A stretch of 40,981 nucleotides of DNA from Candidatus Methylomirabilota bacterium. Its GTDB lineage: Bacteria; Methylomirabilota; Methylomirabilia; Methylomirabilales; CSP1-5. The notes beneath the pieces were generated by a model that had not been told where the DNA came from, did not search any database, and worked only from the letters and a program-made list of their open reading frames with translations. A program made the translations under genes and the position numbers. The stretch spans positions 1-40,981 of the forward strand of contig VRUN01000008.1 in assembly GCA_019456075.1 (NCBI GenBank). The letters are read 5' to 3'. Shown in pieces: positions 3,467 through 39,669 of the stretch (its first letter is position 1; every line of letters begins with the position of its first letter).

Positions 3467-3487
3467 TGACCAATGACCGATGACCGA
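3467..3487. repeat. Heptanucleotide array, TGACCGN family
   Basis: Three consecutive 7-bp units of the form TGACCRA run from 3467 to 3487, and a degenerate tail continues into ACGTCGG. The array lies 9 bp before the 48-bp repeat, the same order as at 7129-7217. Confidence 0.75.
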
Positions 3488-3496
3488 CGTCGGTAG

Positions 3497-3544
3497 GGGC
3501 GAGGAGGGGGTTCCTTCCGAGGCAGGCGACATCTGGCTTGCGTC
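3497..3544. repeat. 48-bp dispersed repeat, copy 1
   Basis: The 48 bases from 3497 to 3544 match 7170-7217 exactly and in the same orientation. The shared stretch begins GGGCGAGGAGGGGG and ends CTTGCGTC. Both copies are intergenic and both follow a TGACCGN-type heptamer array. Sequence outside the 48 bp differs between the copies. Confidence 0.85.
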
Positions 3545-3718
3545 TGGCCGGGGTCCCGCCGCCGTAGCGTAGCGCAGGCGGGGGTGGCCCGCATTGGCGA
3601 ATTACAACGCCTATGCGCGCGTAACGTTGCCTCTCCGCATGAAGTCGTCGGAGAATTATGGCGCCTCCGAGGAAGGTCCCTCCGAGCCCCTACTCCCCGT
3701 ACATCGGACCCTCGGCGG

Positions 3719-3746
3719 TGAACCGTGAACAGTGAACCATGAACCA
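3719..3746. repeat. Heptanucleotide array, TGAACCN family
   Basis: Four 7-bp units (TGAACCG, TGAACAG, then TGAACCA twice) run from 3719 to 3746. They end 2 bp before the stop codon of the minus-strand SirB1-like gene. Confidence 0.8.
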
Positions 3747-3748
3747 CA

Positions 3749-4603
3749 TCAATTGTGCACGGCCTGATGCATTTGGAGGTGCCGGAGGTGCTCGGTGATC
3801 GCCTCCCGGTCATCCGCCTCCTCGACAGCGTCCAGATAGTGTCGGAGATCGGCAATGGCGAGGGGGATTTGCTTCATCTTCCCATAGATCAAACCTCGGT
3901 CTCTCACCTCGGTCGGAGAATCAGGATGGATGATCAACAGCCGCTGCACCACTCGAAGCGCCCCTGGGAAATTCTTCCGGCGGAGGTAGCTCCCCTTCAG
4001 GTTGTTCAACATTCTGGCGAGGATCGACCTCTTGGGGGTGGAAGTGAGGAGGCCTCGATGAAAGGCCATCTTTCCCTTGTAAATCTGGTCTAGGGTGCGC
4101 TGGCAGTCCTCTTCGGAAAGGAGGGCTCCTCGGTGGAAAGGATCGATGAGGATTTCCCGGTCTCCGGACTGGTATTTGATGATGAAGTGCCCTGGGAGGC
4201 CGACCCCGACTAGGTGGAGATCGAGGCGCCAGGCGATCTCCATATACAGGATAGAGAGGGTTATGGGAATCCCTTTTCGACGATCGATCACCTCGTTGAG
4301 GAAGCTGTTCTTCGGGTCGTCGTAGTCTTCGGAGTTGCCCCGAAACCCTTCCTCATCGAAGAGATAGCGATTCAGCTCCTCGATCACCGTGACCGGATCG
4401 AGTTCGAGGCTGACCCGATCTTTGACCCGTTCGGCCATCCCCCCGATGCGGCCGAGGTATCCTTCGGTGTCCAGATGGGGGTATTCCTCGGCGGCGATCA
4501 GCAGAGCTGCCTCGGCCAGGTCGATCTGTTCTTCCGCCCGATCAACCATCCTCGCGAACCGGCTCCGGATATGTTGGATCCTCTCTTCTCCCTGGTCCCG
4601 CAT
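3749..4603 (-). CDS. SirB1-family transglutaminase-like protein with C-terminal TPR-like region
   Basis: The protein has 284 residues from ATG 4603. Its centre holds the hallmark of the SirB1/transglutaminase-like family: NSFLNEVIDRRKGIPITLS, then ILYMEIAWRL and GVGLPGHFIIKY, with a DPFHRG segment downstream. The C-terminal third (about 190-275) is helical and resembles tetratricopeptide repeats, as is usual in this family (ALRVVQRLLIIHPDSPTEVRDRGLIY broken by a short loop). The molecular role of the family is not settled; a protein-binding or protease-fold role is inferred from the fold. The start is ATG 4603 because AGGGG lies 5-9 nt ahead; a GTG at 4615 overlapping the upstream stop is the alternative. 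It is the last gene of the mutT-mutY-HAD cassette. Confidence 0.8.
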   Translation of the reverse strand: MRDQGEERIQHIRSRFARMVDRAEEQIDLAEAALLIAAEEYPHLDTEGYLGRIGGMAERVKDRVSLELDPVTVIEELNRYLFDEEGFRGNSEDYDDPKNSFLNEVIDRRKGIPITLSILYMEIAWRLDLHLVGVGLPGHFIIKYQSGDREILIDPFHRGALLSEEDCQRTLDQIYKGKMAFHRGLLTSTPKRSILARMLNNLKGSYLRRKNFPGALRVVQRLLIIHPDSPTEVRDRGLIYGKMKQIPLAIADLRHYLDAVEEADDREAITEHLRHLQMHQAVHN

Positions 4604-4611
4604 TCCCCCCC

Positions 4612-5292: not shown

Positions 5293-5350
5293 GGTTACCA
5301 GAGCCCCTCCTCTATGTGCGGTCGGTGGTTGACCAGTCTCGCCAGCGTTC

Positions 5351-6450: not shown

Positions 6451-6572
6451 CCCCCTGAAGCGTGAGGCAGGGGGACAGTATCAGATGGTCCTGGGACCGT
6501 CAAGGCTTGGGCCCGTGTTGTCAGCCGCCGCGACCGGCGATCTTGAACGGCGGGGCCGAGGTGAGGGAGCGG

Positions 6573-6601: not shown

Positions 6602-6630
6602 GGGTGAACCGGCAAAGGGGGATCTCGCGG

Positions 6631-7119
6631 ATGGGGGTGTGCGAAGAGAAGTTTCCGGTGGCCAGAAAAGTCGGGAGGATCTGCGGTAAAGTCCTGGCCA
6701 GATTCGGGATCGGGAGATTTCGGGGTTACCCGCTGCTTTACGCCCCCATCTATCCCAACGTCGGGGCGGTCCCCGCTGGAATTCTCGGAATGGGGATCGA
6801 TTCCTTCCTGCTATGCAACACCTTCGTCTGGCGGCATCATCTGAAGGGTCGGCAGTGGGCAACCTCTGTTCTCCTACACGAGGTCGCACACCTGCAGGAT
6901 TTCGCGGAGCACCCGTGGCAGCTTCTTCCGCTCGTCCTGTGCCGGATTGGGTCCCTCCACGTCCCCCATGTGCGCGTCCTTCTCTATACCTATTATCTTT
7001 ACCTGGAGGGGAAGGCTAATCTCCGGGCCCTAGAGGAGGGCGCTTCGCCTTTCATTCTCACCGTGAGCTACCTCACGTACCTCCGCGCCTTCCGTAAATC
7101 CCTCCGGGTGCTTCGGTAG
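6631..7119 (+). CDS. Small HExxH-motif protein, putative zinc metallopeptidase-like, function unknown
   Basis: The 162-residue protein has HEVAH at residues 83-87, the zinc-binding and catalytic HExxH pattern, in a helix (VLLHEVAHLQDF). A candidate third ligand is Glu126 in YLEGKANLRALEEG, about 39 residues later, as in gluzincin-type folds. The flanks are hydrophobic and aromatic (about 88-125), so membrane association is possible, but there is no clear signal peptide. The N-terminus contains a GYPLLYAPIYPN segment. No named family was recognised. ATG 6631 is preferred because AAAGGGGG lies upstream and a promoter-like pair ends at 6601. The gene is divergent from mutT. The zinc-enzyme idea rests on the motif alone. 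Confidence 0.65.
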   Translation: MGVCEEKFPVARKVGRICGKVLARFGIGRFRGYPLLYAPIYPNVGAVPAGILGMGIDSFLLCNTFVWRHHLKGRQWATSVLLHEVAHLQDFAEHPWQLLPLVLCRIGSLHVPHVRVLLYTYYLYLEGKANLRALEEGASPFILTVSYLTYLRAFRKSLRVLR

Positions 7120-7128
7120 AACCGCTCA

Positions 7129-7160
7129 CCGACGACCGACGACCGTTATCCGACGACCAA
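7129..7160. repeat. Heptanucleotide array, TGACCGN family (GACGACC variant)
   Basis: About four and a half 7-bp units of the form ACCGACG run from 7129 to 7160, one altered to ACCGTTA. The array starts 9 bp after the stop of the HExxH gene and is followed 9 bp later by copy 2 of the 48-bp repeat. Confidence 0.7.
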
Positions 7161-7169
7161 AACCGCTAA

Positions 7170-7217
7170 GGGCGAGGAGGGGGTTCCTTCCGAGGCAGGC
7201 GACATCTGGCTTGCGTC
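7170..7217. repeat. 48-bp dispersed repeat, copy 2
   Basis: An exact direct copy of 3497-3544. It sits between the end of the HExxH gene and the small minus-strand gene at 7315, directly after a heptamer array, as copy 1 does. It contains no open frame of interest. Confidence 0.85.
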
Positions 7218-7314
7218 GGTTCCGAAGGCATTCGGAAAGCGCAGCCTGGCATAGATCAGGGGAGAGGGGTTCGTCTGCTGCTGACCCGTGGACCGTGGAG
7301 CCCGTGGGTCGCGA

Positions 7315-7620
7315 TCAGCCTTCGGGCAGATCCCCCGCCGGGTCCTTCTTTTCCAGAAACCAGAGGTCAAGGAACCGGTCCCGATACAGGGTATAGATCT
7401 GTCCGTCGGACGCGAGGACTCGGAAATACTCCTTCTGTTCCCTCTGGACGCTCTCCTGAACCCACCGCTCAATTACGTGGACCACGACAATCTGGCCAGC
7501 CGTCGAGGAGTGGAAGGCGCGCGGGGTCTCCTCTCCCTTGGACCCGGCGTAGCTTGAGACCTGAATCGGCTCGGAGATCCCCATCATTTTCCGTGTGAAG
7601 TTCCTGCCCGTCTCTACCAT
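7315..7620 (-). CDS. Small conserved-looking hypothetical protein (possibly DUF6504-like)
   Basis: The 101-residue product has no signal peptide or membrane segment. Residues about 5-40 are polar with an FHSSTAGQ segment. The rest alternates strands rich in Val, Tyr and Trp (VVHVIERWVQES, then EYFRVLASDG and YTLYRDRFLDLWFLEK). That pattern recalls small single-domain proteins of the DUF6504 type, a resemblance recalled from memory only. GGGAGG lies 5 nt before ATG 7620, which makes this a credible gene despite its size. It is transcribed divergently from folC. No function can be assigned. Confidence 0.55.
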   Translation of the reverse strand: MVETGRNFTRKMMGISEPIQVSSYAGSKGEETPRAFHSSTAGQIVVVHVIERWVQESVQREQKEYFRVLASDGQIYTLYRDRFLDLWFLEKKDPAGDLPEG

Positions 7621-7657
7621 GGGTCCCTCCCGGATTCAACAGGCAAAAGGGTTCTCC

Positions 7658-7684
7658 TTGACAGGATCACGGGTGCTATAGTAG
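7658..7684 (+). promoter_or_regulatory. Putative promoter for folC
   Basis: A perfect TTGACA occurs at 7658-7663 about 95 bp before folC, followed by the AT-rich block TATAGTAGTAG (7677-7687). The best-looking -10 (TATAGT) is only 13 bp away, too close. TAGTAG at 7679 (15 bp) or 7682 (18 bp) would be spaced better but matches poorly. The exact -10 is uncertain. Confidence 0.35.
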
Positions 7685-7719
7685 TAGAGCAACCCTCATC
7701 ATCGTCAACGATGATCGCC

Positions 7720-7761
7720 TGAACTATGAACCATGAACCCTGAACCATCCACCATGAACTA
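7720..7761. repeat. Heptanucleotide array overlapping the folC start
   Basis: Six 7-bp units of the TGAACCN family run from 7720 to 7761, one of them altered to TCCACCA. The likely folC start codon, ATG 7754, is formed at the junction of the last two units. No facing inverted partner was seen. Confidence 0.8.
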
Positions 7762-9055
7762 CACTGACGCCCTCGCTTTCCTGGATGGACTTCAGCGCTT
7801 CGGCATGAGGCTCGGGCTGGAGAACATCCGCCGTCTGACGGAGGCCTTTGACCATCCGCAGGCGACCTTTCAGTCGGTTCACGTGGCCGGGACCAACGGG
7901 AAGGGTTCGACTGCCGCCTTCTTGAACGGGATTCTCCGGGCGGCAGGCTTCACGGTCGGCCTCTACACCTCGCCTCATCTTCTGGACTTTCGGGAAAGAA
8001 TCCTGGTGGACGGCCATCCCATCTCTGCGGAGGAATTGGCTGGTCTCACCACCGAGGTCGCCGGTGTCATTGACCGCCTCTTCTCTCTGTCTCCCCTCTC
8101 GTCTCCCACCTTCTTCGAGGCGGCCACAGCCTTGGCATTCCTCCACTTCGCCCGTCGCCGTGTGGGTTGGGGGGTGATCGAGGTTGGTCTGGGTGGCCGC
8201 TCCGATGCAACCAACATCCTCCAGCCGGAGGTCTCGGTCATCACCAACATTGACCTGGAGCACCAGGAACACCTCGGCGACAGCCTAGAGAGCATTGCCG
8301 CGGAAAAGGCAGGAATCATCCGGGACGAGGGATGGGTGGTGAGTGCCGCGGAAGGCGCAGCCCTGGAGGCGGTCGGCCGGATTGCCCGGCAGAAGGGGGC
8401 GCGCTTGATCAGAGTCCGGGAGCAGTATCGGGTAGAACACCTGGGTCGCTCCGAGCAAGGGGAGACCTTCCGGCTCACGGGGCGACTGAGGGAGTACGAT
8501 TCGCTGCAGGTGCCATTGATGGGCAGGCACCAGGTCCTGAACGCGGTCACGGCCGTGGCTGTCGCGGAACTCTTGGAGGAGAAGGGATTCGGGGTGGGCG
8601 AGGCCCGGATACGTGAGGGGCTTGCCGCTGCCCGCTGCCCCGGCCGCCTTCAGTTGATCCCGGCGCGGCCACGGATTCTCGTGGACGGAGCCCACAACCC
8701 GGCAGGCATGAGGGCCCTGCGGGCTTTTCTGGAAGAGGAACAACTCCCAGGTCGCCTGCTGGTCATCTTTGGCGTTCTCAAGGATAAGGCTTGGGAGCGG
8801 ATGCTCGGCCTCTTGACCCCGCTGGTCTCGTCTGTCGTCCTCACCCGTCCCGAGAGCGACCGGGGTGCCGAGCCGAGGGAATTGGCCACTGTCGCCTCGG
8901 GCTACTTTCAGGAGGTTAGGGTGGCTGAAAGCATGGCGGAAGCCTTGGCCATGGCCCGCGCCCTCGCCGCTTCGGATGATACGATCCTCGTCACCGGATC
9001 TCTCTATACCGCCGCCGCCGCCCTGCGCGCGCTCGGATTTACTTCCCTCTTCTGA
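7754..9055 (+). CDS. folC: Bifunctional dihydrofolate synthase / folylpolyglutamate synthase
   Basis: FolC ligates glutamate to dihydropteroate and then extends the polyglutamate tail of folates, using ATP. The 433-residue product shows the Mur-ligase-like fold: the P-loop VAGTNGKGSTAAF near 45-55, YTSPHLLDFRERI near 73-85, the omega-loop-like GLGGRSDATN near 153 (usual families have Leu where Ser is here), and TNIDLEHQEHLG near 173. HQVLNA and the C-terminal domain entry VDGAHNPAGM (near 315) follow. The start is placed at ATG 7754 because the family begins MxYxxALxFL. A further in-frame ATG at 7733 lies inside the heptamer array. There is no clear Shine-Dalgarno site, since the array occupies that position. 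Confidence 0.92.
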   Translation: MNYTDALAFLDGLQRFGMRLGLENIRRLTEAFDHPQATFQSVHVAGTNGKGSTAAFLNGILRAAGFTVGLYTSPHLLDFRERILVDGHPISAEELAGLTTEVAGVIDRLFSLSPLSSPTFFEAATALAFLHFARRRVGWGVIEVGLGGRSDATNILQPEVSVITNIDLEHQEHLGDSLESIAAEKAGIIRDEGWVVSAAEGAALEAVGRIARQKGARLIRVREQYRVEHLGRSEQGETFRLTGRLREYDSLQVPLMGRHQVLNAVTAVAVAELLEEKGFGVGEARIREGLAAARCPGRLQLIPARPRILVDGAHNPAGMRALRAFLEEEQLPGRLLVIFGVLKDKAWERMLGLLTPLVSSVVLTRPESDRGAEPRELATVASGYFQEVRVAESMAEALAMARALAASDDTILVTGSLYTAAAALRALGFTSLF

Positions 9056-15228: not shown

Positions 15229-15235
15229 CTTATGA

Positions 15236-15306
15236 GTTCAGGGTTCATGGTTCAGGGTTAAATAGGGAGCGCCGGTTTTGCCATGAACTCTGAACTCTGA
15301 ACCATG
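15236..15306. repeat. Facing pair of heptanucleotide arrays (hairpin-forming)
   Basis: A left arm of three 7-bp units GTTCAKG (15236-15256) faces a right arm of about three units TGAACYM (15284-15304), with a 27-bp spacer. The arms are largely complementary, so RNA or single-stranded DNA could fold into a long hairpin. It fills the gap between hemL and the iron-sulfur protein gene. Confidence 0.78.
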
Positions 15307-15320
15307 ACCGGGGAAATCGG

Positions 15321-17056: not shown

Positions 17057-17173
17057 TCGTTGTCCGGCCACCGATGACCGACAACTTGGTGCACAGACTT
17101 CGACGAGCGGTTCGGCCGAGCTCACCGTCGAGGCCTCAGTCGAGTCGTTCACGGCAAAACTCGGACCTTCAAT

Positions 17174-17204
17174 CTGTGAACTGTCAACTGTGAACCGTGA
17201 ACCC
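17174..17204. repeat. Heptanucleotide array between nuoA and nuoC
   Basis: Four 7-bp units of the CTGTGAA / CCGTGAA type (a rotated TGAACCN family) run from 17174 to 17201. A trace of the TGACCGN family lies at about 17070-17085. The array sits where nuoB would normally be. Confidence 0.75.
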
Positions 17205-17243
17205 TTCCAATGGTCGTCGATTCACGGTGACTGAGAATTCAAG

Positions 17244-18905: not shown

Positions 18906-18912
18906 ATGGAAT

Positions 18913-18996
18913 AGCTGTCGGCAGTCAGCGGTCAGTGAATGATTCCTTGAGAGGAGTCAGTTTTTGTGCGGACGGCTGACAGCTGATAGGCTGACA
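18913..18996. repeat. Facing pair of heptanucleotide arrays, AGCNGTC family
   Basis: A left arm of 7-bp units AGCTGTC, GGCAGTC and AGCGGTC (18913-18933) faces a right arm built on GGCTGAC/AGCTGAT (18974-18996). The arms are imperfect inverted copies separated by about 40 bp that include TTTTT. They occupy the nuoD-nuoH gap. Confidence 0.65.
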
Positions 18997-19015
18997 GCGA
19001 GAGGGGTACACCGAG

Positions 19016-21385: not shown

Positions 21386-21390
21386 GGATG

Positions 21391-21452
21391 GTTCACAGTT
21401 CACAGATACAGATATTGATTGCATGATTTTACTGTGAACTGTGAACCGTGAA
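21391..21452. repeat. Facing pair of heptanucleotide arrays between nuoK and nuoL
   Basis: Left units GTTCACA (21391-21404, then one degenerate unit) face right units CTGTGAA, CTGTGAA and CCGTGAA (21432-21452). The arms are complementary and the spacer is about 20-27 bp, so the nascent RNA could form a hairpin ahead of nuoL. Confidence 0.78.
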
Positions 21453-21462
21453 CGAGACGGCT

Positions 21463-28319: not shown

Positions 28320-30134
28320 GTGACCTCGGCGAAACTCCAACAGGCCTCAGCCGAAATTCTGAAGCGCTATCCCCAGAACCAGAAGCGGTCGGCTCTCCTC
28401 CCTCTCCTGTTCTTGGCCCAGGAGGAACGTGGCTATCTGAGCCCGGAGTCTCTTGAGGAGATTGCACACCTTCTCGAGATGCGCCCTACCGATGTCTGGG
28501 AAACTGCCAGCTTTTACACCATGTTTCATTTTCGACCGATGGGGCGATGCCACATTGAGGTCTGTCACAATCTGTCGTGCACCCTTTTGGGGGCAGAATC
28601 GCTTTTAGATGTTCTGAAGGGGCGCTTGCAGATTCGGGAGGGAGAGACAACCCCGGATGGCCGCTTTAGTTTGGGAACGGCCGAGTGCCTGGCTGCTTGC
28701 GACGGGGCACCGGTCGTGCAGGTCAACGGGTATCACTACGGGCCTCTGAACCGGAGCCAGCTCGAGGAACTCTTGGAGGGGTTTGCACGCGGGGAATTAC
28801 CCGAGAGATACCGGTATCAGCCGTGGGCAGGCCCGCCCTCCCGTGGACCAGAACCCGTCAACACCTTCGAGAGGATCCTCCACCAGCATCTCCTCGACCC
28901 GAGCTACGACGGGCGCATCGAGGCGTATCTCGAAAGAGGGGGCTACCAGGCCCTCCCCAAGGCCGTTCGCGAGTATCGCCCGTCAGAGATCATCGAGATG
29001 GTCAAACGATCCGGCCTTCGGGGGCGGGGGGGTGCCGGCTTTCCAACCGGGGTGAAATGGGGGTTTGTTCCCAAGGATCCTGGAATACCGAAATATCTCC
29101 TCTGCAATGCCGATGAGGGAGAACCCGGAACCTTCAAAGATAGGGAGCTCTTGGAGCGGGACCCCCACCAGGTCCTCGAGGGGATTATCATTGCCAGCTA
29201 CGCCATTGGGTCCGAGACTTCGTATATCTATCTTCGCGGTGAGTTCCTGGAGGCGGTCGCGATCCTGGAACGGGCCCTCCAGGAGGCGTATGCGCACGGC
29301 TTCCTCGGAAAGAAGATCCTGGGAAGCGATTTCAATCTGGATGTCTACCTCCATCGAGGGGCAGGCGCCTATATTTGTGGAGAAGAAACGGCTCTCATCG
29401 AGTCGCTCGAGGGGAAGCGGGGCGAGCCAAGGATCCGGCCCCCCTTTCCGGCGGTGAAGGGCCTCTATCAGTGTCCGACGGTGGTGAACAATGTGGAAAC
29501 GCTCTGCAACATCCCGCATATCATCGTCCGAGGCCCCAAGTGGTTTGCCAGTATGGGGACCCCGAAGAGTACGGGCACCCGGGTTTTCTCGGTGAGTGGT
29601 CACGTCCGCCGCCCGGGGAACTACGAGCTCCCGTTGAACGCCACATTGCGACAGTTGATCTACGAACATGCTGGCGGGATACTCGATGATCGCAGAATCA
29701 AGGCGATCATCCCGGGCGGGAGCTCTGCGCCGACACTCACCGCAGATCACCTGGATGTCGGCCTGGATTTCGAGTCGCTCGCCGCTGCCGGATCGATGGG
29801 AGGTTCAGGGGCTGTCATTGTCCTGGACGAGACCACCTGCATGGTGAAGGTGGGGGAGGTGATCAACCGGTTTTACCACCATGAATCCTGTGGCCAGTGT
29901 ACCCAGTGTCGTGAGGGGACCGCCTGGCTCCACAAGATCCTGAAGCGGATCGAGGACGGGCGGGGGCAGATGGCCGATCTCGAGGTACTCAAGGATGTCT
30001 GTCGCAACATGAAGGGGCAGACAATCTGCGTCTTGAGCGATTCGGCGGCGATGCCCACGGAGAGCTATATGCACTACTTTCGCGAGGAATTCGAGGCACA
30101 CATCCAGCAGGGGCGGTGCCCGTTTCGGGCATAG
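28320..30134 (+). CDS. nuoEF: Fused NADH dehydrogenase subunits E and F
   Basis: This 604-residue protein joins two subunits of the NADH-oxidising tip of complex I. Residues about 1-165 are NuoE, with the [2Fe-2S] ligands CHNLSC (C-x4-C) and CLAAC (C-x3-C). After a linker, residues about 180-604 are NuoF. These carry the FMN/NADH loop GLRGRGGAGFPTG, NADEGEPGTFKDRELLE, the GAYICGEETALIESLEG segment, and the N3 cluster ligands ESCGQCTQCREGT plus the Cys of GQTICVLSD. NuoF takes hydride from NADH; NuoE carries cluster N1a. GTG 28320 is preceded by GAGAGGTAAGGA. The frame also continues upstream over nuoA, but that part is a shadow. No stop or frameshift separates the halves. Confidence 0.93.
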   Translation: MTSAKLQQASAEILKRYPQNQKRSALLPLLFLAQEERGYLSPESLEEIAHLLEMRPTDVWETASFYTMFHFRPMGRCHIEVCHNLSCTLLGAESLLDVLKGRLQIREGETTPDGRFSLGTAECLAACDGAPVVQVNGYHYGPLNRSQLEELLEGFARGELPERYRYQPWAGPPSRGPEPVNTFERILHQHLLDPSYDGRIEAYLERGGYQALPKAVREYRPSEIIEMVKRSGLRGRGGAGFPTGVKWGFVPKDPGIPKYLLCNADEGEPGTFKDRELLERDPHQVLEGIIIASYAIGSETSYIYLRGEFLEAVAILERALQEAYAHGFLGKKILGSDFNLDVYLHRGAGAYICGEETALIESLEGKRGEPRIRPPFPAVKGLYQCPTVVNNVETLCNIPHIIVRGPKWFASMGTPKSTGTRVFSVSGHVRRPGNYELPLNATLRQLIYEHAGGILDDRRIKAIIPGGSSAPTLTADHLDVGLDFESLAAAGSMGGSGAVIVLDETTCMVKVGEVINRFYHHESCGQCTQCREGTAWLHKILKRIEDGRGQMADLEVLKDVCRNMKGQTICVLSDSAAMPTESYMHYFREEFEAHIQQGRCPFRA

Positions 30135-30160
30135 TGCTGAGGGTTGAGGACTGAGGATTC
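30134..30160. repeat. Short heptanucleotide array, GGNNTGA family
   Basis: Three to four 7-bp units (GTGCTGA, GGGTTGA, GGACTGA and a degenerate unit) fill the 35-bp gap between nuoEF and nuoG. It starts at the nuoEF stop codon. No inverted partner was seen. Confidence 0.6.
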
Positions 30161-30169
30161 GGATTAGCC

Positions 30170-31819
30170 ATGAGCGAGGAGACGCCAAAGCTCGTAACGC
30201 TCACTGTTGACGGCCGACCGGTCCAGGTGGCACCCGGAACCATGATCATCCAGGCGGGGGAGCAGCTCGGGATTGAGATCCCCTATTACTGCTATCACCC
30301 TGGGCTCCCCATCGAGGGGGTCTGTCGGATGTGTCTCGTTGAGGTGGAGAAGGCCCCGAAGCTTCTCATTGCCTGTGCGACACCGGTGACGGAAGGGATG
30401 GTTGTCCATACCCAGACACCGCATGTGGAGGAGGCCAGGCGGGGGGTCCTGGAGTTCTATCTGCTCAACCATCCCTTGGATTGTCCGATTTGCGACAAAG
30501 GAGGGGAGTGCCCCCTTCAGGACTACACCCTGCGTTACGGCCCCGGGGCTTCTCGGACGCTCGAGGACAAGATTCACCGCGACAAGCACCGCGTCATCGG
30601 CCCGCATATCGTCTTCGATGCCGAGCGGTGCATCCTCTGCACCCGGTGCGTGCGATTCTGCCGGGATATCGTGGGGACCGGTGAGTTGGGGGTCGGGTAC
30701 CGGGCGGACAGGGCGGAGATCATCCTCTTTCCGGGGAAGGAACTGGATAACGCGTATTCAGGCAACGTCATCGACCTCTGCCCGGTGGGGGCCCTGACCA
30801 GCAAGCCATACCGGTTCACATCTCGGCCATGGGACCTCGTCAAGCAGGTGGAGAGTACCTGTCCGGCCTGCAGTCGGGGCTGTAGCATCGTGTTGGACGT
30901 TCGCCATCTGCGGGAGGGGGGAGAGGAGGTCCTCCGGGTCCGCCCGAGGCATAACCCGGAGGTGAACGGGTACTGGATGTGTGACGAGGGACGGTTTGAT
31001 GCCTATCCTCGACGCGGGCAGACCGCCTTGAAAGGTCCCCTCGTGCGAAGGGGAGAGGCCCAGGTACCGGTGACCTGGGACGAAGCGATCTCCATCCTCG
31101 TGGAGCGACTGCGGGGGATCCTCGACCAGCACGGGCCGCAAGCCATCGGAGGGCTACTTTCCACGTGGCTGACGACTGAGGAACTCTACGCCACCGGGTC
31201 CTTCCTCCGGCAGGTCATTGAGACGCCCCACCTCGATTACCGTGTGAGTCCCGTCCAGACGCAGGAGCGGGACGAGGCGGAAGATCATCTCCTCAGGCGA
31301 ACGGACAAGAGTCCGAATACCCAAACGGCCAAGTTGATGAACCTTGGTCCCGGCCCGGAAGGGTTGGGGACGCGCGCAATGCTCGAGGCTGCGACCACGG
31401 GGAGCCTCAAGGCCCTCCTTCTGTTTGAGGTAGACCCCTGGGAGGAGCCGACCCTCGGAGAAGAACTGGAGAAGTTCATGGACCGCATTGATCTTCTGGC
31501 GATTTGGGCGGTCCGGGAGTCGCCTGTGACATCTCGGGCCCACCTGGTCTTTCCCGCTCTGGGTTATGCAGAGAAGGAGGGGACCATCATTAACTTTGGC
31601 GGTCGGATCCAACGCCTTCGGAGGGCCATCGACTCAAAGGAAAAAATCGTGCCCGTGGGGGAAGTCCTCAGACAGGTAGCGGTCGGGCTCGGCCGCCCCG
31701 TGATTCCTTTGACTCCGGGTGAGATCTGGCAACGCTTGGCAGAGGAGCATCCTGCCTTCAACGGTATCCAGTACGAAGCTATTGGATCGCTCGGTGTCCC
31801 GATACACGATGACCGATGA
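30170..31819 (+). CDS. nuoG: NADH-quinone oxidoreductase subunit G, shortened form
   Basis: NuoG carries most of the iron-sulfur relay of the peripheral arm. The 549-residue protein has an N-terminal [2Fe-2S] domain (CYHPGLPIEGVCRMC and a later Cys, about 40-68) and a His-Cys cluster (HPLDCPICDKGGECPLQD, ~103-120). Two [4Fe-4S] motifs follow (CILCTRCVRFCRD and CPVG, ~155-205), then STCPACSRGCSI near 225, which could hold the extra N7-type cluster. The molybdopterin-oxidoreductase-like part is abbreviated: the usual bacterial NuoG is roughly 750-900 residues. It begins MSEE at ATG 30170. The last four codons and the stop lie within a heptamer array. It is the only nuoG in the window. Confidence 0.92.
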   Translation: MSEETPKLVTLTVDGRPVQVAPGTMIIQAGEQLGIEIPYYCYHPGLPIEGVCRMCLVEVEKAPKLLIACATPVTEGMVVHTQTPHVEEARRGVLEFYLLNHPLDCPICDKGGECPLQDYTLRYGPGASRTLEDKIHRDKHRVIGPHIVFDAERCILCTRCVRFCRDIVGTGELGVGYRADRAEIILFPGKELDNAYSGNVIDLCPVGALTSKPYRFTSRPWDLVKQVESTCPACSRGCSIVLDVRHLREGGEEVLRVRPRHNPEVNGYWMCDEGRFDAYPRRGQTALKGPLVRRGEAQVPVTWDEAISILVERLRGILDQHGPQAIGGLLSTWLTTEELYATGSFLRQVIETPHLDYRVSPVQTQERDEAEDHLLRRTDKSPNTQTAKLMNLGPGPEGLGTRAMLEAATTGSLKALLLFEVDPWEEPTLGEELEKFMDRIDLLAIWAVRESPVTSRAHLVFPALGYAEKEGTIINFGGRIQRLRRAIDSKEKIVPVGEVLRQVAVGLGRPVIPLTPGEIWQRLAEEHPAFNGIQYEAIGSLGVPIHDDR

Positions 31820-31887
31820 CCGTTATCCGATGACCGTCAAGAATCAAAAGGCTCATTTTCGGTCGTCGGTCGTCGGTCAACGGTCAT
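31810..31887. repeat. Facing pair of heptanucleotide arrays, TGACCGN family
   Basis: Four left units (TGACCGA, TGACCGT, TATCCGA, TGACCGT; 31810-31837) face four right units (CGGTCGT twice, CGGTCAA, CGGTCAT; 31860-31887) across a 22-bp spacer. The arms are largely complementary. The nuoG stop codon lies in the left arm and the nuoH start follows the right arm by 13 bp. Confidence 0.82.
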
Positions 31888-31900
31888 CAGGCAGGAGATG

Positions 31901-32875: not shown

Positions 32876-32884
32876 GGTGATGGG

Positions 32885-33400: not shown

Positions 33401-33407
33401 AGGGTTC

Positions 33408-33710
33408 ATGGTTCCTCTGTGGGCGTACCTCCTTCTGAGCGGCTTCCTCTTCATCGTAGGGGTAGTTGGGGTGGCTACCCGACGTAACGCCCTCATTATC
33501 TTTATGTCCATCGAGCTGATGCTGAACGCGGTCAATCTGACTTTCGTCGCCTTTTCCCGTTTCCTCCACTCCCTGGATGGGCACGTCTTTGTCTTTTTTG
33601 TCATGACCGTGGCCGCGGCAGAAGTGGTCGTGGGCTTGGCGATCATCATTGCCCTCTTTCGAAACATGGAGACGGTGAACGTGGACGAGATCCATCTGTT
33701 GAAGGGATAA
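33408..33710 (+). CDS. nuoK: NADH-quinone oxidoreductase subunit K, copy 2
   Basis: This 100-residue three-helix protein has the proton-path glutamates in [14 protein letters not shown] (about 33-46) and [15 protein letters not shown] (about 69-83), and the tail [13 protein letters not shown] 33408 is chosen because the protein then has standard length and GGAGTAGAGGG precedes it; the frame opens 45 nt earlier within nuoJ. It is followed by an array pair in the same position as after copy 1, although the sequences of the two pairs are not copies of each other. Confidence 0.92.
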
Positions 33711-33715
33711 GAACG

Positions 33716-33801
33716 GTTCAGAGTTCATAGTTCATGGTTCACGGTAACAGCCAAAACCGGTTCTATCTTTTATCTGTGAACCGTGAACTGAGAACTGTGA
33801 A
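33716..33801. repeat. Facing pair of heptanucleotide arrays between nuoK and nuoL, copy 2
   Basis: The left arm has five units (GTTCAGA, GTTCATA, GTTCATG, GTTCACG, GTAACAG; 33716-33750). The right arm has four units (CTGTGAA, CCGTGAA, CTGAGAA, CTGTGAA; 33774-33801). The arms are complementary over most of their length around a 23-bp spacer. The array occupies the same gap as the pair at 21391-21452. Confidence 0.82.
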
Positions 33802-33814
33802 CGAGGGATTTTCC

Positions 33815-35743
33815 ATGGAAAATCTCATCTGGTTGGTGCCGACATTCCCCTTGGCGGGTTTTCTCGTGAACATTTTTCTCGGACGGCGACTCGCCCGTCT
33901 CTGGGTCAGTTGGGTGGCCTGCGGCGCGATGGGGATCTCGTTCGGCGTGAGTCTCGGCCTTTTCTTCCACCTCATAAACCTTGCTCCTCACCTCAGACAC
34001 CTGGAGCAGGAACTCTTCACCTGGATCCGGATCGCGGATTTCAAGGCTGCCGCGGGCTTTCTCCTCGACCCGCTCTCAGCGGTGATGATTCTGGTGGTGA
34101 CTGGGGTCGGGTTTCTCATCCACGTCTATTCGATCGGCTACATGGGGGAGGATCGTGATTTCGCCAGGTTTTTTGCGTACCTCAACCTCTTTGCCTTCTT
34201 CATGCTCCTCTTGGTCCTGGCGAATAACTATCTCCTCCTGTTCGTGGGCTGGGAGGGGGTAGGGCTCTGTTCGTATCTCTTGATCGGGTTCTGGTTCGAA
34301 AGGCCGGCCGCGGCCAGCGCGGCCCAGAAGGCTTTTGTCGTCAACCGCGTGGGGGACGCCGGATTTCTGCTGGGGCTATTCTTGATCTGGACGACCTTCG
34401 GGACGCTCCAGTACGGGGAGGTCTTTCACCAGGCCGAGGGGCTGCACGGGGTGCTGACCGCGCCGGCCGGGGGGGGGCTGTCGGTCGTCACCTGGATCAC
34501 CCTGGCGCTGTTCATCGGGGCCATAGGCAAGAGTGCCCAGCTGCCGCTATACGTCTGGCTCCCCGACGCCATGGAGGGGCCGACCCCGGTCTCGGCGCTG
34601 ATCCACGCGGCCACCATGGTGACGGCAGGGATCTATATGGTGGCCCGCTCGAGCCCCCTGTACACCCTGGCGCCGTTCAGCTTGGCCGTGGTGGCGTGGG
34701 TGGGGGCACTGACTGCCATCTTCGCGGCGACCATCGCCTGCGTCCAGAATGACATCAAGCGGGTGATCGCGTACTCGACCATCTCACAGCTAGGGTACAT
34801 GTTCCTGGGGGTGGGGGTGGGGGCCTTTGCGAGCGGCATCTTCCATCTGTACACCCATGCCGCCTTCAAGGCGTTACTCTTTCTGGGGGCGGGGGCGGTG
34901 ATTCATGCGCTGCACCACGAGCAGGACATTCAACGGATGGGGGGACTGCGCCCTCACATGCGGGTCACAGCGTACACGTTTGCCGTGGGGGCGCTGGCGA
35001 ATGCGGGGATCTTTCCGTTCGCGGGGTTCTGGTCGAAGGACGAGATCCTCTTTGCGGCGTTCAACGGGGGCTTTTACGTGCTCTGGTTTCTGGGGCTAGC
35101 GGGAGCATTTCTGACCGGCTTTTACATGGCCCGGCTCTACTTCCTCACGTTCGAGGGGGAGTACCGGGGCGATCCACACCATGCCCACGACATTCATGAC
35201 GCCCCGCCCACGATGGGGATTCCCCTCATTGTGCTGGCGGTCTGCTCCGTGGTGGCTGGCTTTGTCGGGATTCCCCCCGAGCAGGGCCCGTTTCACCAGT
35301 TTCTCGCCCCGGTGCTGCACCATGGGGGCGCGGCGCAGGCGGCGGCGCATGGCCTGGCCGTCCCCATGGCCGTGCTGTCCCTCCTTGTAGCGGGGGCCGG
35401 AATCGGGGTGGGGTATCTCTTTTACGTCAGCGTCAGCTGGCGAAACGTCCCGGAGATCTGGGCCGCGCGGCTCCAGGGACTCTACCGGGTGGTCTATCAC
35501 AAATATTATGTGGATGAGTTCTATCAAGATTGGGTCGTGGGTCCCCTCGACCGCCTAGCGTTTTTTCTCTGGCGGGGGTTTGACGTGGCCGTGGTGGACG
35601 GGGCCGTAAATGGGGTAGCCCGATTGATGGAGATGGGAAGTTGGGGGCTCCGGCGGATCCAGACCGGGGTGGTCTTCAACTACGTCCTCTCTATTCTTGT
35701 CGGTGTCGTCATCTTCTTGGGTTATCTGGTCTGGGGGAGGTAG
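33815..35743 (+). CDS. nuoL: NADH-quinone oxidoreductase subunit L, copy 2
   Basis: This second distal antiporter-like subunit has 642 residues. It has VGWEGVGLCSYLLIGFW near 145-161, GAIGKSAQLPLYVWLPDAME near 235-254 and the same core as copy 1. Residues about 179-568 come from the 1,170-bp stretch shared exactly with 21985-23154. The N-terminal ~178 residues and the last ~74 differ: here the lateral helix and anchor are shorter (VVGPLDRLAFFLWRGFD in place of a longer amphipathic segment). ATG 33815 follows GAGGG and lies 13 bp after the array; the frame extends further upstream through the array but without family likeness. nuoM starts 3 bp after the stop. Confidence 0.94.
   Translation: MENLIWLVPTFPLAGFLVNIFLGRRLARLWVSWVACGAMGISFGVSLGLFFHLINLAPHLRHLEQELFTWIRIADFKAAAGFLLDPLSAVMILVVTGVGFLIHVYSIGYMGEDRDFARFFAYLNLFAFFMLLLVLANNYLLLFVGWEGVGLCSYLLIGFWFERPAAASAAQKAFVVNRVGDAGFLLGLFLIWTTFGTLQYGEVFHQAEGLHGVLTAPAGGGLSVVTWITLALFIGAIGKSAQLPLYVWLPDAMEGPTPVSALIHAATMVTAGIYMVARSSPLYTLAPFSLAVVAWVGALTAIFAATIACVQNDIKRVIAYSTISQLGYMFLGVGVGAFASGIFHLYTHAAFKALLFLGAGAVIHALHHEQDIQRMGGLRPHMRVTAYTFAVGALANAGIFPFAGFWSKDEILFAAFNGGFYVLWFLGLAGAFLTGFYMARLYFLTFEGEYRGDPHHAHDIHDAPPTMGIPLIVLAVCSVVAGFVGIPPEQGPFHQFLAPVLHHGGAAQAAAHGLAVPMAVLSLLVAGAGIGVGYLFYVSVSWRNVPEIWAARLQGLYRVVYHKYYVDEFYQDWVVGPLDRLAFFLWRGFDVAVVDGAVNGVARLMEMGSWGLRRIQTGVVFNYVLSILVGVVIFLGYLVWGR
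34349..35518. repeat. 1,170-bp stretch shared identically by the two nuoL genes, copy 2
   Basis: This is the counterpart of 21985-23154 (offset 12,364 bp, same orientation). Identity starts within the codons for RVGDAG and ends at the codons for YYVDE. The small separate patch 34245-34295 also matches copy 1. Direct repeats of this size could recombine and delete the 12.4 kb between them. Confidence 0.9.
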
Positions 35744-35746: not shown

Positions 35747-37426
35747 ATGCCGCTTTTGAGTCTGATCACCTTTCTTCCTGTGGTGGGGACCCTCGGCCTC
35801 TTGATCATTCCCCGGCGACGGCGGAACCTAATTTTCTGGGGTGCCCTGGGCACTTCGGTCCTCACGTTTCTCGTCTCCCTCAGGCTCTATACGGGATTTG
35901 AACTGGGAGTCGGGGAGATGCAATTCGTCGAGGCGGCGGCCTGGATTCCGAGCCTCGGGATCCAATACAAACTCGGTGTTGATGGGATTAGCCTCTTTCT
36001 CGTCCTCTTGACCACATTCCTCACGCCGCTCACCATCCTCGCCTCTTCAGGTATTAAACACCGGATGAAGGAGTACATGGTGGCCATGCTCCTGCTCGAG
36101 ACGGGCATGATCGGGGTCTTCCTTGCCTTGGATCTGGTCCTCTTCTATGTTTTTTGGGAGGGCACGCTGATTCCTATGTACTTCATCATCGGGATATGGG
36201 GCGGGCCCAGACGGATCTATGCCACGATGAAGTTTGTTCTCTACACGATGGCCGGTTCGCTCTTGATGCTCGTGGCCATTATTGCAGTGGCCTGGCTCCA
36301 CGGCCGGGCGGGAGGGGGTCCCACCTTTGATCTCACGGTCCTGATGAATGCTGAGATCCCTCCCGCGATCCAATTCTGGCTCTTCCTCGCCTTTGCCCTC
36401 GCCTTTGCCATCAAGGTTCCCCTCTTTCCGTTTCATACCTGGCTCCCGGACGTTCATGTAGAAGCCCCCACAGCGGGGAGCGTGCTTCTGGCCGGGGTCC
36501 TCCTGAAGATGGGAACCTACGGCTTTCTCCGTTTTGCGCTCCCCCTGTTCCCCCAGGCCACCGTGACCTTCCTCCCCTGGATCTCGGGACTCGCCCTCGT
36601 GGGGATCATCTACGGGGCGTGGGTGGCAATGGTGCAGCCTGATCTGAAGAGTCTCGTGGCGTATTCCAGTGTGAGCCACCTGGGTTTCGTGGTGCTGGGG
36701 ATCTTTGCGCTGAACGGAGAGGGGATCGCCGGATCTGTTCTTCAGATGGTCAACCACGGTCTTTCCACCGGGGCTCTCTTCCTTCTCGTCGGGATGATCT
36801 ATGAACGACGCCATAGCCGGATGATTACCGACTTCGGCGGCCTCTTCCGCGTGGTCCCGGTGTTTGCCGGGATGTTCCTCCTCGTGGCCCTCTCCTCCAT
36901 CGGTCTGCCGGGCTTGAATGGATTCGTGGGAGAGTTCCTGATCCTCTTGGGGACCTTCCGGGTGCATCCGGTATACGGCATTGTCGCGGTGACGGGGATC
37001 ATCTGGGCGGCCTGGTATATGCTTGCCATGATCCGCCGAGTCCTCTTTGGTCCTGTCATTCATCAAGAGAACGCAGGCCTCTCAGATCTCAACTGGACCG
37101 AGCGGATCGTCCTGATCCCCATCATTATCCTGATCGTGTGGATCGGCGTGTATCCCACCCCCTTCCTTCGCCGGATGGAGGCCTCGGTCGAGCGCGTTAT
37201 CGTCCAGGTCGAGCGCCGCCAATCGGTTCACAGTTCAGGGTTCACAGTTCAGGGAAAAAGAGCAATGAACGCTGAAACATCTTCCATGAACCATAAACCA
37301 TCCATCATGAACCCCTCCCCCGCTCATGGTTCAGAGTTCGTGGTTCATGGCAGAGGCGCAATTCACGGGCTATCCATGAACCCTGAACTATCAACTCTGA
37401 ACCGCGAAGCGAGGAGGCAGAGGTGA
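35747..37426 (+). CDS. nuoM: NADH-quinone oxidoreductase subunit M, copy 2, with repeat-encoded C-terminal tail
   Basis: The core (about residues 1-490) is a normal NuoM. It has KLGVDGISLFLV near 75-86, FYVFWEGTLIPMYFIIGIWG near 133-152 (key Glu), AIKVPLFPFHTWLPDVHVEA near 222, VSHLGFVVLGIFALNGEG and LSSIGLPGLNGFVGEF. Residues about 494-556 are encoded by heptanucleotide arrays (37226-37411) and show biased Ser, Asn, Met and His content, unlike any NuoM. The repeats have thus replaced or displaced the original stop, or the frame simply runs through them by chance. The stop overlaps the GTG of nuoN. Confidence 0.93.
   Translation: MPLLSLITFLPVVGTLGLLIIPRRRRNLIFWGALGTSVLTFLVSLRLYTGFELGVGEMQFVEAAAWIPSLGIQYKLGVDGISLFLVLLTTFLTPLTILASSGIKHRMKEYMVAMLLLETGMIGVFLALDLVLFYVFWEGTLIPMYFIIGIWGGPRRIYATMKFVLYTMAGSLLMLVAIIAVAWLHGRAGGGPTFDLTVLMNAEIPPAIQFWLFLAFALAFAIKVPLFPFHTWLPDVHVEAPTAGSVLLAGVLLKMGTYGFLRFALPLFPQATVTFLPWISGLALVGIIYGAWVAMVQPDLKSLVAYSSVSHLGFVVLGIFALNGEGIAGSVLQMVNHGLSTGALFLLVGMIYERRHSRMITDFGGLFRVVPVFAGMFLLVALSSIGLPGLNGFVGEFLILLGTFRVHPVYGIVAVTGIIWAAWYMLAMIRRVLFGPVIHQENAGLSDLNWTERIVLIPIIILIVWIGVYPTPFLRRMEASVERVIVQVERRQSVHSSGFTVQGKRAMNAETSSMNHKPSIMNPSPAHGSEFVVHGRGAIHGLSMNPELSTLNREARRQR
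37226..37411. repeat. Large cluster of four heptanucleotide arrays inside the 3' end of nuoM copy 2
   Basis: Four sub-arrays alternate in direction: GTTCACA/GTTCAGG units (37226-37253), TGAACCA-type units (37266-37314), GTTCATG-type units (37329-37349) and TGAACYN units (37377-37411). Each reverse pair could fold into a hairpin. It is the longest cluster in the window and lies within an open reading frame. Confidence 0.82.
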
Positions 37427-38880
37427 GCGTGACCGGTACGCAGCTGGATTGGGGAGGGATGGCCCCTTTCCTCCTCCTCACGGCGACCGCCCTGGGGACG
37501 CTCTTGCTCGACCTGTTCCTCTCCCCGCGACATCGGGTCCGGCTCGCGTATTTGGGACTGACGGGGTTGCTGATTACGATGGCGTTACTGGTCCACGGGT
37601 TTGGTGGACAGGAGCGGGTGGTGGCGGAGATGCTCATTGTCGATGACTTCTCCCGATTCTTTCATCTCGTGTTCCTGCTTATTGCGGCTCTCACCATCTT
37701 GGTCTCGGTCAAGAGCGTGGAGCAGGAGGGAACGCACCAGGGTGAGTACTACACCCTGGTTCTCTTCGCGACCCTAGGCATGATGGTGATGGCCTCGGCA
37801 GCAGATCTCATCATGGTCTTCTTGGGTCTTGAGGCTCTCTCCATCCCCCTCTATATCCTGTCTGGATTCCTCCGAGGGGATGTACGATCTAATGAATCTG
37901 CGCTCAAGTATCTTCTCTTGGGCGCCTTTGCCTCGGCCTTTCTCCTGTATGGGATCGCCTTTCTTTACGGAGCTGTGGGTAGTACTCGACTGAAGAGCAT
38001 CGCTGCCCATCTGGGCCACGGCGCGGCCTGGGAGAACCCCCTGGTCTTCTTAGGGGTCGGCCTCCTTCTGGTGGGCCTTGCCTTCAAAGTCGCCGCGGTC
38101 CCCTTCCACATGTGGTTGCCGGATGTCTATGAGGGAGCCCCGACGCCCGTTACCGCTTTTATGATTGCGGGGACGAAGGCGGCGGCCTTTTCCGCACTCC
38201 TGCGAGTCTTCGGAACCGCGCTGTCCCCGCTCCCCCCCGAATGGATTCCCCCCCTGTGGGTGGTTGCCCTCCTCACCATGGGGGTGGGGAATATCGCCGC
38301 TCTGACGCAGCAGAGCATTAAGCGGATGCTGGCCTACAGCTCTATCGCCCACGCCGGCTATCTCTTGGTGGCCGTAGTGGCCGGTACGAGCCGCGGATTT
38401 TCCAGTATCCTTTTTTACCTCGTCGTCTACGCCTTCATGAACCTGGGAGCCTTCGCCGTGATTATCGCGCTGGCCCGGCAGGGGGAAGAGAGTCCGACCC
38501 TTTCCTCGTATGCCGGATTGGGCTTCCGCCATCCCGTGTTGGCCTTCAGTATGGCGGTGTTTATGTTTTCGCTGGCAGGTCTCCCGCCCACCGGGGGATT
38601 CATGGGAAAGTTTTATATCTTCAGTGCTGCGGTGGAGGCCGATTATGTGGGCCTGGTGATTATCGCCGTTGTGTGTAGTCTGATCTCCGTCTTTTTCTAC
38701 CTCCGGGTCGTGGTGGTGATGTACATGGAGGAACCACGGGAAGGGCATTCGAGTCCAGTACTTTCCCCCGCCATCTTGGTCACCCTATTTCTCGCGACGG
38801 CGGCGATACTACAGTTAGGGCTCCTCCCGGCGGGGGTGTGGGATCTGGCGGTCCGGTCGGTCCAAAGTTTTTGGGGGTAA
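37423..38880 (+). CDS. nuoN: NADH-quinone oxidoreductase subunit N, copy 2
   Basis: The 485-residue protein has about 14 helices. Signatures are VFLGLEALSIPLYILSGFLR (about 128-147, helix-5 Glu), the Lys-bearing GLAFKVAAVPFHMWLPDVYE (about 208-227), SIKRMLAYSSIAHAGYLLVA and LAGLPPTGGFMGKFYIF near 385. The GTG start overlaps the nuoM stop and follows GAGGCAGAG; its upstream region is heptamer-array sequence. It ends run 2 and is followed after 6 bp by rex. It differs throughout from the first nuoN. Confidence 0.94.
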   Translation: MSVTGTQLDWGGMAPFLLLTATALGTLLLDLFLSPRHRVRLAYLGLTGLLITMALLVHGFGGQERVVAEMLIVDDFSRFFHLVFLLIAALTILVSVKSVEQEGTHQGEYYTLVLFATLGMMVMASAADLIMVFLGLEALSIPLYILSGFLRGDVRSNESALKYLLLGAFASAFLLYGIAFLYGAVGSTRLKSIAAHLGHGAAWENPLVFLGVGLLLVGLAFKVAAVPFHMWLPDVYEGAPTPVTAFMIAGTKAAAFSALLRVFGTALSPLPPEWIPPLWVVALLTMGVGNIAALTQQSIKRMLAYSSIAHAGYLLVAVVAGTSRGFSSILFYLVVYAFMNLGAFAVIIALARQGEESPTLSSYAGLGFRHPVLAFSMAVFMFSLAGLPPTGGFMGKFYIFSAAVEADYVGLVIIAVVCSLISVFFYLRVVVVMYMEEPREGHSSPVLSPAILVTLFLATAAILQLGLLPAGVWDLAVRSVQSFWG

Positions 38881-38886
38881 AGGCGG

Positions 38887-39558
38887 ATGAAGCGAGAGAG
38901 GGGGGAGCGGCCGATCAAGCCTCGAATCCCTGAGAAGACGGTCACCCGCCTGAGTATCTACCTCAGGTGTGTAGAGGCCTTCATCGCCGATGGGATGAGC
39001 ACCGTCTCTTCCCAGCAGTTGGCTGAGCGCTTCGGGTTGAACTCTGCCCTGGTTCGCAAGGATTTAGCGTACTTTGGTCAGTTCGGGGTTCGGGGTCTCG
39101 GATACTACACCGAAGGGCTCAAGCAGAATCTGGAGCGAATCCTGGGACTCAACCAGGAGTGGGGGGTGGCCTTGGTGGGTCTAGGGAACCTAGGCTCCGC
39201 CCTCTTGAATTACCGGGGCTTTCAGCAGCGGGGGTTTCGCATATCCGTGGTCTTCGATACCGACGCCAGCAAGGTGGGCCGGCGGATTGGCAGCATCCCT
39301 GTCTGCCACGTAGAGAAGATCGTCCCCATCCTCAAGCGGCGGAGGATCAAGATGGGAATCATCACGGTTCCCGCAGGGGCGGCCCAGGCCGTCGCCGATC
39401 AGTTGGTGACTACAGGGATAAATGCCATCCTCAACTTCGCCCCGACCCAACTTACGGTTCCCAAGGGGGTCAAGGTACAGAACGTGGACCTCTCCGTCAT
39501 GCTCAAGACCTTGAGCTTCTATACCAGCCGGTCTTCCCGCGTCACCCGAGCCCGCTAG
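38887..39558 (+). CDS. rex: Redox-sensing transcriptional repressor Rex
   Basis: Rex represses respiratory and fermentative genes and leaves DNA when NADH rises. The 223-residue protein has an N-terminal winged helix (about 15-85) with IPEKTVTRLSIYLR, SSQQLAERFGLN and the recognition segment ALVRKDLAYFGQFGVRGLGY. A Rossmann domain follows, with the dinucleotide loop VALVGLGNLGSALLNYRGF (about 97-115) and a C-terminal swapped helix near ILNFAPTQL. AGGCGG precedes ATG 38887. It lies 6 bp after nuoN, so it is expressed with complex I, consistent with feedback control of NADH dehydrogenase. No clear Rex operator was found in the window. Confidence 0.94.
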   Translation: MKRERGERPIKPRIPEKTVTRLSIYLRCVEAFIADGMSTVSSQQLAERFGLNSALVRKDLAYFGQFGVRGLGYYTEGLKQNLERILGLNQEWGVALVGLGNLGSALLNYRGFQQRGFRISVVFDTDASKVGRRIGSIPVCHVEKIVPILKRRRIKMGIITVPAGAAQAVADQLVTTGINAILNFAPTQLTVPKGVKVQNVDLSVMLKTLSFYTSRSSRVTRAR

Positions 39559-39562
39559 AGAA

Positions 39563-39669
39563 AGCTGTCAGCAACTAGCAATCGGCTATCAGCAATATGG
39601 ACCGCAGCGGTCAGCCATCAACTCGTGGGCTTCGGAGCTCACTGCTGAAAGCGGACAGCTGACTGCTTG
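39563..39669. repeat. Heptanucleotide arrays, AGCNRTC family, between rex and the ubiD-family gene
   Basis: Left units AGCTGTC, AGCAACT, AGCAATC, GGCTATC and AGCAATA (39563-39597) continue in degenerate form to about 39619. Right units CTGCTGA, AAGCGGA, CAGCTGA and CTGCTTG (39642-39669) run the other way. The arms are partly complementary. They fill the gap between two convergent genes, where a bidirectional terminator would be expected. Confidence 0.68.

Follow-up and report, generated by a model that had tools for sequence, protein, structure and literature searches.

What are the tandem arrays with a strict 7-bp period that occupy the intergenic gaps of this respiratory locus, and how did they come to be there? 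The window, by which we mean the whole stretch of DNA that was analysed, is contig C100 (40,981 bp, GC content of 60%) of a 1.78-Mb assembly in 102 contigs, referred to below as G000. An earlier note on this DNA had described the arrays in at least twelve gaps, and had pointed to their abundance inside one respiratory locus.

Detection of period-7 arrays

Self-matches at lag 7 were counted in the window and in 100 order-2 Markov simulations. Stretches matching at 16 or more of 21 positions were found 11 times (simulated mean 0.08, maximum 2), and those matching at 15 or more were found 16 times (simulated mean 0.48, maximum 3). TRF and the lag scan agreed on the positions of the arrays, which fall in 11 gaps or gene ends, namely 3320-3749, 7119-7733, 15228-15321, 17056-17244, 18905-19016, 21385-21448, 30134-30170, 31819-31898, 33710-33810, 37224-37408 (within an open frame, at its 3' end), and 39558-39680. 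The exact period described in the earlier note is thus confirmed, with 11 places instead of twelve or more, and the families it had named were right (TGAACNN, TGACCGA/CGAYGAC, GCTGACN/GTCAGC, and one TGAGG array). Lag-7 matches at 8625 and 39081 are intragenic and chance-like. No Rfam model reached its gathering score in the window.

The excess at this period, for which a genome-wide autocorrelation had been proposed, is also seen outside the window. Across 872 kb of G000, lag 7 gave 123 non-coding and 22 coding matches, whereas every other lag from 4 to 13 gave 0-6 non-coding matches each; this sample is about half of the genome, mostly array-carrying contigs, which biases the absolute density upward. 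The sequence TGAACNNTGAACNNTGAAC is present in 85 copies across the whole genome, with none for the reversed control. Array matches amounted to 28-70 per strand in six other genomes of the genus and 37/37 in the genome labelled f2, ranged from 2 to 104 in total within genus g6, and were absent from family f7 as sampled at class level. Six further species of the genus, each assembled independently, have the same architecture, and so do isolates in culture, among them Geomonas edaphica and Algoriphagus algorifonticola, so assembly error, which the earlier note had named as a finding that would refute the arrays, is not the source. The period-7 arrays are real, intergenic, and spread genome-wide, and are not tied to respiratory genes.

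Architecture, polarity, and unit sequence

What had been overlooked in the earlier note is that most of the arrays are facing arms of inverted-repeat elements with a fixed polarity. An F1 element consists of (GTTCANN)n G, an unconserved centre of 15-60 nt, and C (NNTGAAC)n, the right array being the reverse complement of the left. Elements are about 60-150 bp long, with 2-6 tandem heptads at each end, and are grouped by heptad word into F1 (GTTCANN, or TGAACNN), F2 (CGAYGAC), F3 (GTCAGCN, or GCTGACN), F4 (GTCCAAN, or TTGGACN), F5 (GTGATTR), and rarer others. The 872 kb hold 49 inverted array pairs of all families, a list that includes a few long-range rows joining arms of neighbouring elements. 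Among neighbouring F1 array pairs at most 250 bp apart, 28 of 33 were facing, with (GTTCANN)n followed by (TGAACNN)n and a centre that mostly measured 22-60 nt, and three had the opposite order.

This polarity holds in larger samples. The order GTTCA-then-TGAAC was counted 270 times against one reverse case in 35 genomes of the order (overlapping registers counted), and six families over about 1.8 Mb of the genus gave 109 against 0 within 80 bp. In named loci of other phyla, F1 gave 13 against 0 when the hits used for fetching were left out, and the non-F1 families gave few cases, two of them reversed. Since either order of the arms folds into an equally good hairpin, the fixed polarity points to sequence-specific ends or to a shared ancestry. 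The arms have a sharp inner edge, GTTCA-[CGT]-[AG]-G (GTTCABRG), and F1 elements showed neither conservation past this edge nor a GTAG-type foot.

Each position of the core TGAAC is conserved in 87-98% of 462 F1 units. Positions 6 and 7 vary almost freely, except that A is seldom found at position 6 and T seldom at position 7. Likeness at position 7 is 0.59 within an arm, 0.42 between the arms of an element, and 0.31 between elements. Facing units match no better than non-facing ones, and the variable dinucleotides do not covary across the stem; the arms are homogenised along themselves and not across it. Hairpin-templated copying was rejected, as the variable dinucleotides of facing units resemble each other no more than those of other pairs. 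A cassette of stops in all three frames, with one TGA per 7 bp, was likewise rejected, because the TGA of F2 is in the opposite arm and F4 contains no stop. The features found in the window are listed in Table 1.

Table 1. Heptad arms and elements in the window, with their state in related genomes
Position	Feature	Parts	Comparison or method
3464..3487	F2 left arm (CGATGACCAATGACCGATGACCG)	Partner arm lost or separated	Complete F2 pair in orthologous gap of G001
3718..3744	F1 right arm, 4 units (GTGAACCGTGAACAGTGAACCATGAAC)	Without left arm	TRF, lag scan
7121..7158	F2 left arm (CCGACGACCGACGACCG...)	Single	TRF, lag scan
7716..7763	F1 right arm	Directly upstream of folC-like gene	F1 units at orthologous place in G001
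15234..15260	F1 left arm	Complete element	GTGRTTR-family element in this gap in G001
15281..15309	F1 right arm	Partner of 15234..15260	
17069..17203	Composite gap	F2 units 17069-17085; 60-bp insert remnant 17096-17123; F1 right arm 17169-17203	F2 in G001
18914..18998	F3 element	GTCAGC left arm 18914-18935; GCTGAC right arm 18968-18998	Same family in G001
21391..21453	F1 element	Left arm 21391-21405; right arm 21431-21453	F4 (GTCCAAA/TTTGGAC) in G001
30134..30156	TGAGG heptad array	Single arm	TGAGG/TGAGT units in G001; GTCAGC in G006
31807..31885	F2 element	Left arm 31807-31836; right arm 31859-31885	F2 in G001, G006
33714..33802	F1 element	Left arm 33714-33744; right arm 33774-33802	F1 in G001, G006, L178
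37224..37404	Two consecutive F1 elements	Left 37224-37254, right 37286-37312; left 37324-37350, right 37374-37404	3' end of second nuoM frame
39563..39666	F3 element	Past last cluster gene	No element in G001

The complex I genes at window 16697-39558 are present in duplicate, with two copies each of nuoH, nuoJ, nuoK, nuoL, nuoM, and nuoN, and the second nuoM is absent from G001. Its open frame (35747-37426) crosses two F1 elements, giving a predicted C-terminal tail of about 65 repeat-derived residues, and its homologues align only to about residue 478. Elsewhere in G000, tRNA-like genes lie between two F1 elements at C37:2805-3034 and C4:8191-8342.

Genomic placement and turnover at orthologous gaps

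Arrays occur at 1.71 per kb of gap between co-directional genes, 0.59 between convergent genes, and 0.44 between divergent genes, and none was found in the 28 divergent gaps shorter than 400 bp. About 40% of the co-directional gaps of 100-200 bp in the sampled half of G000 carry an array. In several species, the stop codon of clpB and that of the gene upstream of nadD sit within arrays.

Thirteen operon gaps were compared across seven species of the genus (G000-G006). Most are occupied in most species, with the family differing; the gap between ctpA and the next gene, for example, holds GTGATTR in G000 and G004, GTCAGC in G003, G005, and G006, and GCTRGNA in G001 and G002. Between the window and G001, the family differs in the gaps starting at 15228, 17056, and 21385 and is unchanged in those at 31819 and 33710 (Table 1), and the last also keeps part of the centre (AACAGC, kept in both G001 and G006). 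Over 107 kb, G003 and G006 share 97.0% identity; with flanks intact, four sites switch family, and further sites were gained or lost. At C134:3348, this pair shows a switch from F4 to F3, as judged by eye. Between G005 and G001 (about 95% identity), six switches and about four presence/absence cases were found among 24 anchored places, which include some coding false hits. At one clean empty site, G001 reads CCCAACAG-TA-GATCGAG where G005 carries a whole F2 element, and no target-site duplication was seen there. Some otherwise equal elements of close relatives differ by single heptads in their arms. The wording "spreading or maintained element" in the earlier note was fair, as arrays appear, disappear, and change at orthologous gaps.

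The Candidatus Methylomirabilota record nzgw238 (JAHFDE010000190.1) aligns collinearly to window 30561-33858, with a nucleotide identity of 77%, and the lineage of G000 is probably Methylomirabilota-like. The named relative L178 has an F3 element between F2-arm remnants at the place of the window's F2 element (31807..31885), an arrangement such as nested insertion would leave.

Dispersal and associated repeats

In G004, a 98-bp F1 element comprising both arms and the centre is present at C64 and, with 88% identity, at C115, and the flanks are unrelated. Three F2 elements (C102, C69, and C52) have arms, centre, and some outer sequence in common; being alike beyond the arms, they suggest that a larger repeat may account for part of the F2 dispersal. 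For most F1 centres, the sampled half of G000 contains no second, related sequence, and G006 holds no other full copy of its newly switched F3 element.

Other repeats adjoin the F2 arms. A 48-bp sequence (GGGCGAGGAGGGGGTTCC...TTGCGTC) is found in two copies of 100% identity at window 3497-3544 and 7170-7217, both adjacent to an F2 arm. It recurs at least twice more in the sampled genome (C56, C66), which marks it as a second dispersed repeat. A 60-bp sequence (CGGACTTCGGCGAGCTC...) is found with 97-100% identity at about eight places in G000, including C102:22396-22455, C96, C56, C69, C45, and C91, and a remnant lies near window 17096-17123. In the cases read, it sits inside F2 right arms and is preceded by GGTCGTCGG; it seems to be a small element targeting F2 heptads.

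Origin of the elements

Observed directly are the paired arms, the fixed polarity, the sharp inner edge, the unit of a core plus two free positions, and the co-directional placement, together with fast gain, loss, and replacement at orthologous gaps, arms changing in 7-bp steps, and, in at least one case, a whole element present again at a site with no relation to the first. The best reading, to which we give a probability of roughly 0.5, is that these are non-coding, non-autonomous, dispersing inverted-repeat elements whose multi-heptad ends are recognised by a putative protein. Such a sequence-specific DNA-binding or transposing protein would read the heptads as multi-site ends, and the same putative protein would move or copy the element, in many cases into one already in place. 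The centre would then drift fast, with 7-bp slippage keeping the arms tandem, and selection would purge insertions into promoters and spare those between cotranscribed genes. An RHH/omega-like heptad-binding protein was considered as a candidate.

Against the reading as dispersing elements stands that no transposase was found. The Y1 (HUH) transposase profile PF01797 is absent from the array-rich genomes G000, G004, G029, and G032 (assemblies 68-93% complete), and a RAYT/Y1 mobiliser was rejected as not required, given these carriers without it. The lack of a visible target duplication, the mostly unique F1 centres, the G006 F3 element that has no source copy in its genome, and the F2 likeness beyond the arms also weigh against this reading. 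Against mobility, whole-gap replacement could result from recombination with close strains, and the two G004 copies could in principle stem from an ancient duplication followed by rearrangement.

The main rival holds that the arrays are binding sites with 7-bp spacing for nucleoid-associated or regulatory proteins, maintained by selection and not by mobility, the families corresponding to different proteins. Three heptads correspond to two helical turns. A 5-nt core with two free positions resembles a protein site, the polarity is fixed, and the same gaps are reoccupied across the genus, all of which this explanation would accommodate. For the paired sites of Geobacter metallireducens, regulator binding has been proposed by Aklujkar (PMC2700814). 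However, gaps between cotranscribed genes are not the usual territory of regulators and short divergent gaps lack the arrays, family swaps between 97%-identical genomes would need the binding protein to change too, and a whole element was copied into unrelated flanks. We consider the binding-site explanation rather unlikely.

According to another explanation, which we find improbable, the arrays arose on the spot by 7-bp replication slippage and template switching across a hairpin, without any movement, and the 7-bp unit stems from the polymerase itself. A polymerase origin of the unit was proposed by Mrazek for bacterial heptanucleotide repeats, as far as its citation in PMC4679880 and PMC4692102 conveys. 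The single-heptad differences among close relatives, the heptad excess in unrelated bacteria, and the uniqueness of most centres are in line with it. Local generation, however, predicts both polarities, against the 270:1 and 109:0 counted, and it leaves the same core TGAAC at about 100 sites and across many phyla, as well as whole-family switches in place, to be accounted for. Slippage followed by neutral decay would moreover spread changes evenly, so the limitation of changes to positions 6 and 7 speaks against it, in agreement with the earlier note's view that simple slippage is insufficient; nor are facing units copied from one another.

The least probable explanation, that the arrays are intercistronic RNA hairpins for transcript stability, processing, or termination with a sequence that is free while the stem forms, fits the inverted arms in co-directional gaps, the sites kept though the family changes, and the suggested effect of cyanobacterial STRR hairpins on transcripts (PMC2670836), yet in 73 elements oriented by transcription the sense strand had no excess of G-U (105) over A-C (98) mismatches, sense and antisense folds were alike (p = 0.17), the variable bases lack covariation across the stem, and the opposite polarity, which folds equally well, is unused. 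Selection on the RNA strand was rejected on the two strand tests, and the lack of strand bias together with the lack of covariation lends support neither to an RNA hairpin nor to hairpin-templated copying.

Comparison with known repeats

The earlier note knew the heptameric STRRs of cyanobacteria as the only analogue, but paired sites have been published for G. metallireducens and Xanthomonas, and heptamers for Beggiatoaceae. In G. metallireducens, paired tandem hepta- and octanucleotide sites were described as putative regulator sites of classes 1-3 (Aklujkar 2009, PMC2700814). Like the present elements, they are 7- or 8-nt tandem pairs on opposite strands at variable distance, dispersed and intergenic, and in the proBA gap G. 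sulfurreducens has a different element, similar to the family differences reported here (PMC2700814). Their words are different (octamers GTTGCTYN and TCTCCGTS, heptamer MTYCTGA), with 8-24 pairs each, and were read as unique to that genome (PMC2700814), whereas our elements comprise several heptad families with a measured strict polarity, switch family at orthologous gaps, and extend over many phyla. Two opposite-strand tandem arrays close to each other, in a fixed convergent orientation, mark paired sites of the Geobacter/Xanthomonas type and are found here.

The GGGAATC heptads of Xanthomonas, mostly of four units, form 70-75 convergent pairs per genome, and the Nostoc word is GGGGAYT (PMC4692102). 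The Xanthomonas pairs are also mostly in co-directional gaps and rarely in divergent ones, and sister species use the same gaps with changed length and sequence (PMC4692102). In contrast to the several words without G runs that replace one another here, Xanthomonas and Nostoc each have one G-rich, quadruplex-forming word per genome, for which copy dispersal was not reported (PMC4692102). Cyanobacterial STRRs, intergenic 7-bp tandem repeats, can form hairpins, as between the hup genes (PMC2670836). They have other words and filamentous cyanobacterial hosts, and fixed polarity and family switching are not described for them in the literature covered (PMC2670836). The TAACTGA heptamers of Beggiatoaceae are abundant and intergenic in distant lineages, but are direct repeats just upstream of start codons without paired arms, with one inverted case in 170 sets (PMC4679880).

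REP/BIME sequences and MITEs are likewise dispersed, intergenic, non-autonomous palindromes or inverted-repeat elements, but share their sequence within a family, and REPs go with a Y1 transposase (PMC2817692, PMC2229807). The elements described here are short and non-coding with terminal inverted repeats, as MITEs are, yet differ in their unconserved centres and tandem-heptad ends, in not requiring Y1, and in that no target duplication was seen. Shared internal sequence, another MITE trait, was found for one F1 pair (G004) and three F2 copies, and not for most F1 centres. In the literature covered, with few subscription journals, nothing was found on heptad elements in Methylomirabilota or uniting the known cases.

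Occurrence in other bacteria

A facing pattern of 3+3 units (30 fixed bases) was found in at least 119 stretches, against a chance expectation of about 1e-5 in 257 Gb by our own arithmetic. The matches listed come from Planctomycetota, Geobacteraceae and other former Deltaproteobacteria, Bacteroidota, Acidobacteriota, Betaproteobacteria, Verrucomicrobiota, Chloroflexota, Calditrichia, and others, including cultured isolates. Further heptad families are present in these loci. GTTCANN pairs were found in Geobacter/Geomonas loci, while the published Geobacter classes use other words. In viral contigs, which may include misassigned host DNA, the facing period-7 pattern occurred in 81 stretches, against 14 for the opposite polarity, nine for period 8, and four for period 6. 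Within the order, G026 (L388, 5440-5520 and 15679-15850) has few F1 arrays and carries facing heptad pairs of GTGTTGA and TCAGC. Related genomes vary in array number, which is high in G017, G020, G022, and G029 and low in G024, G028, and G034.

We tentatively propose that there may be one large class of mobile inverted-repeat elements in many phyla, with tandem-heptad ends read by a putative enzyme, of which the Geobacter, Xanthomonas, and hairpin-forming STRR repeats would be local families; the ends could be re-coded from one word to another, with position, polarity, and architecture constant. For the present organism, the occupancy of short co-directional gaps means that the elements shape a good share of the non-coding DNA, and even some gene ends. 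Scattered observations of intergenic heptad repeats in bacteria go back decades, and no account of their origin has gained acceptance. With the polarity, the unit of a core plus free positions, the presence in many phyla, and the replacement of families taken together, their origin becomes a testable question about an element and an enzyme.
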